Assembly: GCA_000263395.1 (NCBI GenBank)
Contig: AJXE01000005.1
Span: forward strand, 62,001-126,000
From: Stutzerimonas stutzeri TS44
Lineage (GTDB): Bacteria; Pseudomonadota; Gammaproteobacteria; Pseudomonadales; Pseudomonadaceae
Length of the DNA: 64,000 nt
Direction: 5' to 3'
Shown here: piece after piece, positions 27,781 through 34,774 of the stretch
Layout of the letters: each line of letters begins with the position of its first letter
How positions within the stretch are numbered: position 1 is the stretch's first letter
Notes under the pieces: generated by a model
Databases searched by the model: none
Told to the model about the DNA's origin: nothing
Seen by the model: only the letters and a program-made list of their open reading frames with translations
Translations under genes and position numbers: made by a program

Positions 27781-28416
27781 ATGCGGCATGGAGTACCTCG
27801 CTTGTATTTGCCCGGACCGTTGCGGAACTATCGACAGCACACCCCGCTAGCCCTGAGCGCCCTGCTGGTCTGCCTTTTCGGCATTTTCCTGGCGAGCCAG
27901 ATCAAAACGGTGTGGCAACTGAGCCGCGCCCCTCTCACGGCAGAGGTCAGCCCTCCTGCCGTCAGCGCTACCGGCAGTTCCGATCCATCGCGCCTGGACG
28001 CCCTTTTCGGCACCCCGCCCGCGCTTCAGGGCAGTGCAACGACCAGCGCCGCAGGCGTAACCCTGCATGGCAGCTTCGTGCATGCCGACCCTAGTCGCTC
28101 CAGCGCCATTATTCAGATTGCCGGTCAACCACCCCAGTTGGTCTGGCAGGGCCAGGAGCTACAAAGCGGCGTGGTGCTGCGCGGCGTGCATCCGGACCAC
28201 GTGCAACTCATGCGCGACGGTCAGATAGAACGGCTGGACTTTCCTGCCGTGCGTTCGCCGGTATTCGTTCCCGATGAGGCGCCGCAACCGTACGAGACCG
28301 AGGATGCGGGCGATGAGGAAATGCAGCAACAGATGGAGGCGCTGCGCCAGCAACTGGAGAACGCCGTCAGCCCGCCCGCTTCGCCCACCCCCGAACGTAC
28401 CGACCAAGGAAGATGA
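27781..28416 (+). CDS. gspC: Type II secretion protein GspC (XcpP-like)
   Basis: This inner-membrane bitopic protein links the inner-membrane platform to the secretin. It has 211 residues: a transmembrane helix at ~24-44 (LALSALLVCLFGIFLASQ) and a periplasmic homology region at ~70-160 (VTLHGSFVHADPSRSSAIIQI, in part; LVWQGQEL; GVHPDHVQLMRDGQIERLDF). A short Gln/Glu-rich coiled coil (~180-195) takes the place of a PDZ domain. That short C-terminus resembles XcpP of P. aeruginosa. It is followed after eight bases by gspD. Genes gspE-M are not adjacent. Confidence 0.9.
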   Translation: MRHGVPRLYLPGPLRNYRQHTPLALSALLVCLFGIFLASQIKTVWQLSRAPLTAEVSPPAVSATGSSDPSRLDALFGTPPALQGSATTSAAGVTLHGSFVHADPSRSSAIIQIAGQPPQLVWQGQELQSGVVLRGVHPDHVQLMRDGQIERLDFPAVRSPVFVPDEAPQPYETEDAGDEEMQQQMEALRQQLENAVSPPASPTPERTDQGR

Positions 28417-28423
28417 CTGAACG

Positions 28424-30673
28424 ATGCCGCCGTTTCTCATGCGTCCGCTGCTTGCCCTGACCCTTTCCAGCGTTCTGATCATGCCGCCGGCTGCACTGGC
28501 GGCAGTTGCGGATACCGGTATCGAGCCAAGTTCCAGCCAGGAAGACGGTTGGACTATCAACCTGAAGGATGCCGACATCCGCGCATTCATCGATCAGGTC
28601 AGCCAGCTCAGCGGCCAGACGTTCATCGTCGACCCACGGGTCAAAGGCCAGGTCAGCGTCGTATCCAACGCCACGCTGACGATGGATGAGGTCTACCAGC
28701 TATTTCTTTCGGTGATGGCGACTCACGGTTTCAGCGTGCTGGCACAGGGCGACGTCGCGCGCATCGTACCTAACGCCGAGGCGAAGGCCGAGGCCGGTGG
28801 TGGTCCGGCCGGCGGCGATCAACTTGAAACACGCGTCATCCAGGTTCAGCACACCGCGGCGACCGAGTTGATTCCGCTGATTCGCCCGCTAGTCCCGCAG
28901 TATGGCCATCTGGCCGCGGTCACGTCTGCCAACGCGCTGATCATCAGCGACCGTAGCGCCAACATCGCGCGTATCGAGGATCTGGTGCGACAGCTGGACC
29001 GCACCGAAAGCGACGACTACAGCGTGCTCAACCTGCGCCACGGCTGGGCCAGCGATATTGCCGAAGTCCTGCGCAGCTCCCTGATCCGTGGCGATGCGAA
29101 AAGCACCGCCGGGCTGCAGATCATCGCCGATTCGCGCACCAACCAGCTGATCTTCATCGGCCCGCCGCAGGCTCGCAGCAAGCTCGCCAGCCTGGCGCAG
29201 ACCCTGGACACCCCGGCCACCCGCTCGGCCAATACGCGGGTGATCCGCCTGCGGCACAACGATGCCAAGTCGCTGGCCGAAACCCTCGGCGACATTTCCG
29301 AGGGACTTAAGGATTCCGGCGAAGGCGAGACGACCACCAGCCGTCCGCAGAACATCCTGATCCGTGCCGATGAGAGTCTCAACGCCCTGGTGCTGCTCGC
29401 CGAGCCAGAGCTGATCGGCACGCTGGAAAGCATCGTCCGCCAACTGGACGTGCCGCGCGCACAGGTCATGGTCGAGGCGGCGATCGTCGAGGTTTCCGGC
29501 GATATCAGCGACGCGCTGGGCGTGCAGTGGGCAGTCGATGCGCGCGGTGGTACCGGTGGCGTGGGGGGTGTCAATTTCGGCAACACCGGGCTGTCGATCG
29601 GCAGCGTGCTGAACTCCATCAACGAGGGCGAGATACCGAGCAACCTGCCCGATGGCGCGATCCTCGGCATTGGCACGCGCAGCTTCGGTGCACTGGTGAC
29701 CGCGCTGTCCTCCAACAGCAAGAGCAACCTGCTGTCGACGCCGAGCCTGCTTACCCTGGACAACCAGGAGGCCGAGATCCTCGTGGGCCAGAACGTGCCG
29801 TTCCAGACCGGCGCCTATACCACCGACTCCTCGGGCGCGAACAACCCGTTCACCACCATCGAGCGGCAGGATATCGGCGTGACGCTGAAGGTGACCCCGC
29901 ACATCAACGAGGGCGCGACACTGCGCCTGCAGATCGAGCAGGAAATCTCCTCCATCGCCCCCACGGCGAGCCTTACCGCGCAGGCCGTGGACCTGGTCAC
30001 CAACAAGCGCTCGATCAAGAGCACCATTCTTGCCGAGGATGGCCAGGTGATCGTGCTTGGCGGCCTGATTCAGGACGACGTGACCCGCACCGACTCCAAG
30101 GTCCCGCTGCTGGGTGATATTCCGTTGCTCGGTGCGCTGTTCCGCTCGACGCAGGAGAGCCATGTCAAACGCAACCTGATGGTTTTCCTGCGCCCGACCG
30201 TGGTGCGTGACCGTGCCGGCCTGGCCGCACTATCGGGCAAGAAGTACAGCGATATCCGCGTGATCGAGACTGACTCGTCCAGCCCCACCATTCTTCCAGC
30301 CAACCCCGAGCGCCTGTTCGATGGCCAGGGCGAACCGGCGCCGGCCATCGACCTGCGCGCCAACGAACCGCGTCAAGGCTCGCTGGCGCCGCCTCCGCCG
30401 GCGCGTAGCACCAAATCCGGCATCCCGCCCGGCGTTACAGGCAGCTGGGCGATTCAGCTGGCCAGTCTGCGCAATCCGGCTAATGCCGAAGCGCTGCGTG
30501 AACGCCTGGTCGGACTTGGCTATGAGGCTTATGTTCGACCGGGCAGCAACACCAGCCGGGTCTACGTCGGGCCGCTGGCGAGCCGCGACGAGGCCGCACG
30601 TCTGCGCGAGCAACTCTCGAAGGAACAGCGGCTGGACGGCATCGTGCTGAGAATCGAGCCTACGCGCGAATAA
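28424..30673 (+). CDS. gspD: Type II secretion secretin GspD with C-terminal SPOR domain
   Basis: This is the outer-membrane channel of type II secretion. A signal peptide occupies 1-27. The N0 domain spans ~40-115 (WTINLKDADIRAFIDQV), followed by N1-N3 to ~370 and a secretin core at ~390-615, with VGQNVPFQTGAY near 450 and LLGDIPLLGALFRS near 565 closing the family signature. A Pro/Ala linker follows. Residues 674-749 form a SPOR domain (SWAIQLASLRNPANAEALRE onward). The 749-residue length exceeds the ~650 expected for a secretin without it. The SPOR part is 50% identical, ungapped, to that of the DedD-like protein at 34178-34774. No pilotin gene is visible nearby. Confidence 0.94.
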   Translation: MPPFLMRPLLALTLSSVLIMPPAALAAVADTGIEPSSSQEDGWTINLKDADIRAFIDQVSQLSGQTFIVDPRVKGQVSVVSNATLTMDEVYQLFLSVMATHGFSVLAQGDVARIVPNAEAKAEAGGGPAGGDQLETRVIQVQHTAATELIPLIRPLVPQYGHLAAVTSANALIISDRSANIARIEDLVRQLDRTESDDYSVLNLRHGWASDIAEVLRSSLIRGDAKSTAGLQIIADSRTNQLIFIGPPQARSKLASLAQTLDTPATRSANTRVIRLRHNDAKSLAETLGDISEGLKDSGEGETTTSRPQNILIRADESLNALVLLAEPELIGTLESIVRQLDVPRAQVMVEAAIVEVSGDISDALGVQWAVDARGGTGGVGGVNFGNTGLSIGSVLNSINEGEIPSNLPDGAILGIGTRSFGALVTALSSNSKSNLLSTPSLLTLDNQEAEILVGQNVPFQTGAYTTDSSGANNPFTTIERQDIGVTLKVTPHINEGATLRLQIEQEISSIAPTASLTAQAVDLVTNKRSIKSTILAEDGQVIVLGGLIQDDVTRTDSKVPLLGDIPLLGALFRSTQESHVKRNLMVFLRPTVVRDRAGLAALSGKKYSDIRVIETDSSSPTILPANPERLFDGQGEPAPAIDLRANEPRQGSLAPPPPARSTKSGIPPGVTGSWAIQLASLRNPANAEALRERLVGLGYEAYVRPGSNTSRVYVGPLASRDEAARLREQLSKEQRLDGIVLRIEPTRE

Positions 30674-34177: not shown

Positions 34178-34774
34178 TCAGCGCGCTTCCGGCTTGAAGC
34201 GCACCACGAAGCCATTCAGCTTCTGCTGGCGCTGCAACTGATCGCGCAACCGGTTGGCCTCTTCGCGCTCGATGAGTGGCCCGACGAAAACCCGGTTCAT
34301 GCCGTCCGCCGTACGAATGTAGGCGTTATAGCCCTGTTCACGCAGGGTCTTCTGCAGCTTCTCCGCACTCGCCCGGTTGGACAGGCTGGCCAACTGAACA
34401 GACCAGCTCACCGGCAGGTTATCGGCATCCACCCGCGACTGCGGCACAGGAGCCGCGGGTTCAGGTGCTTTCACCGGCTCTGGGGCTGCCACTGGCGTCC
34501 CGGCCGGCTCGGGGGAAACGGCTGTAGACGGGGTTCCGGAGTCCTCCTCGACGATCTCGAAGCCCTCGGGAATCGATTTCGGTTCCGGGACCTGCACCGG
34601 TTCCATCTCGATCTGCGCCACCGGCGGCGTAGCGGGCATCGCCGGGGCATCGACGACGACGTGGCGCAGATCATCCTCGCGGGTGAACAGCATCGGCACG
34701 AAGATCACCGCCAGAGCGATCAGCACCAATGCGCCGACCATGCGCTGTTTCAAGCCCTTATCCAGCAGCGCCAT
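34178..34774 (-). CDS. DedD-like SPOR-domain cell division protein
   Basis: This 198-residue bitopic protein has a short cytoplasmic start ([19 protein letters not shown]), one transmembrane helix at ~12-30, a Pro/Ala/Glu-rich periplasmic linker (~35-120) and a SPOR domain at 123-198 (SWSVQLASLSNRASAEKLQK onward). SPOR domains bind septal peptidoglycan stripped of stem peptides, and DedD helps FtsN-type activation of division. Its ATG lies within the 3' end of folC (17-base overlap). The SPOR part strongly resembles the one on GspD in this window. Confidence 0.92.
   Translation of the reverse strand: MALLDKGLKQRMVGALVLIALAVIFVPMLFTREDDLRHVVVDAPAMPATPPVAQIEMEPVQVPEPKSIPEGFEIVEEDSGTPSTAVSPEPAGTPVAAPEPVKAPEPAAPVPQSRVDADNLPVSWSVQLASLSNRASAEKLQKTLREQGYNAYIRTADGMNRVFVGPLIEREEANRLRDQLQRQQKLNGFVVRFKPEAR

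Follow-up and report, generated by a model that had tools for sequence, protein, structure and literature searches.

The type II secretion system (T2SS) secretin GspD (XcpQ) of Stutzerimonas stutzeri TS44 ends in a SPOR domain of the DedD type, a domain that the XcpQ of most related genera examined here lacks. Its gene, gspD (28424..30673, + strand), lies in a stretch of 64,000 nucleotides (contig AJXE01000005.1, positions 62,001 to 126,000), here called the window, whose own numbering is used throughout. The open reading frame (ORF) of 749 residues passes the GspD equivalog model (NCBIfam TIGR02517, 536.7 bits against a cut-off of 351.35), and residues 673-742 match the SPOR family (Pfam PF05036, E 1.4e-17, 64.2 bits against a gathering cut-off of 21). 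The protein runs from a signal peptide through N0 (from residue 45), the N domains, the secretin domain (residues 427-595, 29702..30208, +; Pfam PF00263, E 3.9e-52) and the S-domain region (596-645, 30209..30358, +) to a proline-rich linker (646-673, 30359..30442, +) and the SPOR domain (674-749, 30443..30670, +). The APAIDLR end of the S-domain region marks the fusion point, as placed by alignments and by the C-termini of relatives. Residue 674 corresponds to base 30443, and the domain start of 30440 given in an earlier note on this DNA is one codon early. On balance we favour a model in which the SPOR domain serves as an accessory targeting and anchoring tag, held on a flexible linker and descended from one old fusion with the dedD family, with alleles of both kinds coexisting since.

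The domain closely resembles that of a DedD-like protein of 198 residues encoded nearby (34178..34774, - strand; Pfam SPOR at residues 123-192, E 3.5e-19). BLASTP aligned residues 611-746 of GspD to 72-195 of this protein (E 4e-24), including a gapped proline-rich part and running ungapped from residue 674 on. Over GspD 674-749 a separate alignment gives 50.0% identity, which bears out the gapless match of 76 positions at 50% reported in the earlier note; judged from sequence, the similarity is far above chance. Across 30 fused GspDs, the SPOR domains average 51.1% identity to 64 DedD SPORs, compared with 21.4% to their own FtsN, 26.8% to RlpA and 19.8% to DamX. By these identities they are closer to DedD than to any of the other three, supporting assignment of the domain to the DedD type and not to an unrelated SPOR family, a placement that the earlier note had named as fatal to its proposal. 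The two kinds of protein also share a proline-rich stretch before the domain. Unlike GspD, which bears its SPOR on an outer-membrane pore, the DedD-like protein has a hydrophobic stretch near the N-terminus, as read by eye.

These data point to the DedD family as the likely source of the fused domain, and a duplicated 3′ end of dedD joined to gspD is most likely its origin. This part of the earlier proposal stands; a recent copy from the gene about 3.5 kb away is not supported. An unrooted tree built from all 30 fused SPORs together with 23 of the 64 DedD SPORs splits the two sets on one branch (support 95/89), so the copy looks old rather than recent and local; all SPOR trees rest on 76 columns. 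Moreover, in only 8 of the 30 genomes did the resident DedD lie closer to the fused SPOR than other DedDs do on average; duplication of, or gene conversion from, the resident dedD as a recent local event was rejected. A P. aeruginosa record has the order xcpP, xcpQ, a short-chain dehydrogenase/reductase gene, metZ, purF, cvpA, a SPOR gene, folC, accD, trpF, truA and fimV. Given this shared order, gspD and the DedD-like gene probably already lay close together when the genera split, and their proximity by itself is no sign of a recent event. A record titled P. aeruginosa plasmid pHOU1-1 (NZ_CP042268.1, L006) holds the xcp cluster with housekeeping neighbours and looks like a chromosome piece.

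The P. aeruginosa protein provides the closest reference for the state without the domain. Its xcpPQ pair is followed by the same genes from metZ to fimV, and XcpQ is 71.6% identical to the window GspD over residues 39-645; however, it has 658 residues, stops near the fusion point and carries no SPOR, in agreement with the expectation of the earlier note for XcpQ-type proteins of about 650 residues. In the genus and the family, unfused XcpQ ends at or close to A[IV]DLR plus a few residues, the usual family C-terminus being AIDLRQ followed by the stop. Fused GspDs keep this end and continue into the proline-rich linker and the SPOR domain. Directly behind DLR, the linker begins with ANEP in all four members of the window clade and with SNEP in 17 of the 22 members of a large fused clade; this common start argues for one fusion in the two clades. 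It is not shared by four further fused genes (G001, G003, G015 and G052).

The scan of named genomes, which may omit records of the window's own genome, places the window and its closest named relatives in Stutzerimonas. A GspD match was found in 53 of 56 Stutzerimonas genomes: at the locus, 30 genomes carry the fused gene (746-770 residues), 22 an unfused gene (643-648 residues) and one a gene cut by a contig end (G019). The three genomes without a GspD match comprise G022, which does have a GspE match, and G009 and G025 (99% completeness), which have neither, an apparent loss of the T2SS. Among the profile matches listed, SPOR lies in the GspD frame in 29 of the 30 fused genomes; in the remaining one (G015) it was identified by alignment only. 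Among the best 80 named loci of 484 relatives, SPOR is present in 14 of the first 28, which are Stutzerimonas (some filed as Pseudomonas), and in none of the other 52 (643-661 residues). The named genomes overlap the set of 56, and the two counts are not independent. The domain is thus not a general feature of GspD in this clade and beyond, the outcome that the earlier note had set against its own reading: it is absent from 22 of 52 full-length GspDs of the genus and from all 52 named loci outside it.

How the two alleles came to coexist was approached with trees of the gspD core and of purF plus metZ, which adjoin gspD and are only a stand-in for a species tree. On the gspD core tree the fused and unfused labels need two changes. 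A single fused clade was not rejected by the core (approximately unbiased test, p-AU 0.48 for protein and 0.39 for codons), nor was a single unfused clade (p-AU 0.44, codons). In contrast, the purF plus metZ tree rejects both, the fused clade with p-AU 0.0008 and the unfused clade with p-AU 0.019. Rooting with P. aeruginosa leaves the fused G001 and G052 as the deepest rows; the branch to the rest has support of 80 in the core protein tree and is unsettled in the purF plus metZ tree. The fewest changes of state would be needed if the domain was gained once at the base of the genus and lost at least twice. In the 22 unfused genes the stop lies 1-3 residues past DLR (DVR in G033), and a six-frame tblastn search of the 1.2 kb past each stop found no SPOR remnant (best E 0.05); truncation by point mutation was accordingly set aside as the source of the unfused state. 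Since these stops fall at the usual XcpQ stop of other genera, they fit retention or re-import of an unfused allele as well as loss, and allele exchange would explain why their ends resemble those of other genera. With the fused SPORs set apart from the DedD SPORs on one branch, the fusion looks old and shared, and loss or exchange would have followed.

The fused domain is predicted to adopt the SPOR fold, beta-alpha-beta-beta-alpha-beta (strands 89-97, 117-121, 126-133 and 155-160 and helices 100-112 and 136-150 in model numbering), with a predicted local distance difference test score (pLDDT) mostly of 81-87. Foldseek returned only DedD (6ztg) and the CwlC SPOR (1x60) from the PDB with E up to 0.001, and the RlpA SPOR with denuded glycan (6i09) ranked fourth (E 1.3e-3). 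Published glycan contacts include FtsN Q251/RlpA Q270, FtsN R285/RlpA R309, RlpA R311 and FtsN W283 (PMC6895207). Matching the columns to these residue numbers by motif, we find Q678, in the column of RlpA Q270, in 30 of 30 fused GspDs and R712, in that of R309, in 28 of 30. Moreover, the SPOR domain is under purifying selection: over 13 pairs, not all independent, the ratio of non-synonymous to synonymous rates (dN/dS) is 0-0.31 (median 0.12), compared with 0.006-0.071 for the core and 0.16-1.41 for the linker.

Several observations weigh against a working tag. The structural model as a whole has a mean pLDDT of 63.9 and a predicted template modelling score of 0.43; it is confident in the SPOR part only and not in the S-domain part cut out with it, and the linker is disordered (pLDDT mostly below 50). 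The column of RlpA R311 holds F or Y in all 30 fused GspDs and that of FtsN W283 holds T in 23 of 30, while in the QxAS stretch the S is replaced by R in G003 and G015; the FtsN of these bacteria also lacks the R311 residue, and their DedD lacks both. The domain evolves faster in the fusion, mean identity being 60% among fused SPORs and 84% among DedD SPORs. When FtsN, RlpA, DamX and paralog SPORs were added to the tree, the fused SPORs did not form one group, with DedD among them, although one group was not rejected (p-AU 0.258). This tree contains long branches (RlpA, FtsN, DamX, G092 and the paralogs) and is used as a caution only; in it RlpA joins the SPOR of GspD_G013 by a branch of length 3.47, a placement flagged as maybe false. 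Finally, 22 close relatives carry a T2SS with an unfused GspD. A rival reading takes the SPOR for a neutral or decaying tail that happened to be tolerated after an old fusion and is now disappearing. It would suit the scattered distribution, in which the state changed at least twice, the faster evolution and the contact columns that are not kept. Against this reading, which we consider improbable, stand the dN/dS of the SPOR, low next to a loose linker, the invariant Q678 and the lack of any remnant behind the 22 unfused stops.

Genes for much of the remaining machine are present in the same genome. The cognate gspC (xcpP; 27781..28416, + strand, 211 residues; Pfam T2SSC, E 2.5e-13) adjoins gspD and pairs with it. 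Unlike in P. aeruginosa, where xcpPQ lies beside xcpR-Z, gspE of the window genome (G000) is found away from gspCD on another contig (C1:398300-399781), adjoined by gspF, G, H, I, J, K and L; each of gspE to gspL scores above the cut-off of its model. An ORF of 171 residues in the place of gspM had no model match at E 1e-5.

The earlier note had suggested that the SPOR domain replaces a pilotin or GspAB in delivery to the outer membrane. No PulS/OutS (PF09691) or AspS (PF16549) pilotin was found in any of the 56 Stutzerimonas genomes, fused or unfused, by models whose controls gave matches in E. coli. GspB (PF16537) reached E 0.001 in 7 of 56 genomes and the cut-off in 2, both fused (G038 and G051), with a model that found no match in any control genome. 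The signal peptide, read by eye, has no cysteine, and hence no N-terminal lipobox of the kind expected of a liposecretin of the HxcQ type. These absences would suit a replacement; however, the searched helpers are equally missing in the 22 unfused relatives, which leaves their absence unlinked to the SPOR domain, and the S-domain region is kept in fused and unfused GspD alike. The searches did not extend to GspA or to pilotins of the PA3611 type, a candidate pilotin of Pseudomonas (PMC3542185). We consider replacement very improbable, and this part of the earlier proposal is not upheld.

The favoured model, an accessory tag, can be set out as follows. A SPOR domain of the dedD family would have been fused once to gspD at the root of the genus or close to it, alleles with and without it coexisting since through loss or exchange. 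The S domain of XcpQ lies as in pilotin-dependent secretins (PMC5646249), and from this position the C-terminus of GspD should be periplasmic and near the outer membrane, with a linker that would let the SPORs reach the wall. If the assembled pore is a 15-mer here, 15 SPORs would hang at the periplasmic face and could bind glycan strands stripped of their peptides by the division amidases. Secretin subunits would thereby be concentrated where the wall is opened, at the septum and young pole, and the pore would then be held to the wall, which may benefit the cell; the tag would be an accessory to outer-membrane piloting, not a substitute for it. PilQ offers a parallel, being a secretin whose wall-binding domains place it at future division sites; its AMIN domains are required for P. 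aeruginosa to position the pilus machine at midcell and at the poles. Unlike the SPOR of GspD, these domains are AMIN, N-terminal and part of another machine (PMC5285504). An alternative, in our view unlikely but less so than a neutral tail, is that the SPOR tethers the pore to peptidoglycan anywhere along the cell without septal targeting. Fifteen copies could give avidity even for sparse denuded strands, and attachment to the wall is known for OutB and GspA of other T2SSs (PMC9239104).

From 72 matching genomes outside Stutzerimonas we picked 20 XcpQ-type loci by hand, not at random; 18 encode GspDs of 640-680 residues and two encode long ones, G092 with a DedD-like SPOR and G080 with a divergent type. 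Six more short GspDs (G165, G153, G225, G287, G239 and G257) have 645-652 residues. The DedD-like fusion of G092 (L110, L228; genus code g11) has an unfused genus-mate, G065, and could represent either a separate event or a transfer. The tblastn alignment of G092 ended at 663 although its GspD is fused, and alignment ends were not used to exclude the domain. An order-wide sample of 33 genomes, in which 31 other families had one genome each, gave five further ORFs of more than 600 residues with SPOR, none secretin-like by eye; the presence of GspD in these genomes was not checked.

A second kind of SPOR occurs on 15 long GspDs (744-813 residues) of Pseudomonadaceae, including second copies in Stutzerimonas G042 and G024. 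Like the fused XcpQ, these combine a secretin with a C-terminal SPOR, but of another subtype and mostly behind a longer linker. Pfam SPOR exceeded its cut-off in four of seven scanned, the other three scoring 16.7-20.2 bits against 21; on average the domain shares 15.7% identity with the fused XcpQ SPORs and 26.1% with the DamX of the same genome. This divergent, DamX-like domain was seen in L120-L131, L115, L059 and L060. In G042 (L227, G042:C13:125000-144000) and G024 (G024:C1:3182437-3186579) the long paralog is divergent beside gspE, as xcpPQ is in P. aeruginosa, while the SPOR-fused xcpQ keeps its position by metZ and purF, each genome having two GspD matches and one GspE match. The long paralogs are provisionally called XqhA-like, and XqhA of P. 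aeruginosa may be among them; a plasmid search gave XcpQ alone. PA1868 is given as XqhA, with no list of its domains, in a passage of PMC7685553. A further distant GspD of about 40% identity (L062 and L063, in G014 and G044) lies next to a GspE-like gene of its own and forms with it a second T2SS-like cluster. From sequence comparison, T2SS secretins of the family probably gained a C-terminal SPOR on more than one occasion.

According to PMC9239104, LspD of Legionella was the one T2SS secretin known to carry a SPOR. Legionella is also described as lacking GspA/B and a canonical pilotin (PMC9239104, PMC6617341). However, the LspD domain is N-terminal, before N0, whereas that of Stutzerimonas GspD lies behind the S domain at the C-terminus. 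Judging by position, we infer that the two have separate origins. The open-access literature, with subscription papers mostly outside the search, yielded no description of a C-terminal SPOR on a T2SS secretin. The C-terminal SPOR is thus a new arrangement, while a SPOR on the secretin itself is already known from LspD.

These findings bear on how a 15-subunit pore is assembled across the wall and on whether division and T2SS assembly are linked, a coupling raised as a possibility in PMC6532946. Close relatives with the same T2SS, with and without the wall-binding domain, constitute a natural experiment, and the native C-terminus of the unfused relatives marks the site at which the domain could be deleted cleanly. 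Tentatively, and with less confidence than for the tag in Stutzerimonas itself, SPOR may be a recurrent and switchable address tag of T2SS secretins, captured separately as a C-terminal DedD-type domain in Xcp-type GspD, as a C-terminal DamX-like domain in the long paralogs and as an N-terminal domain in Legionella, its gain or loss coupling or uncoupling pore assembly and division. If so, sister species of Stutzerimonas would differ in where the same machine is placed.
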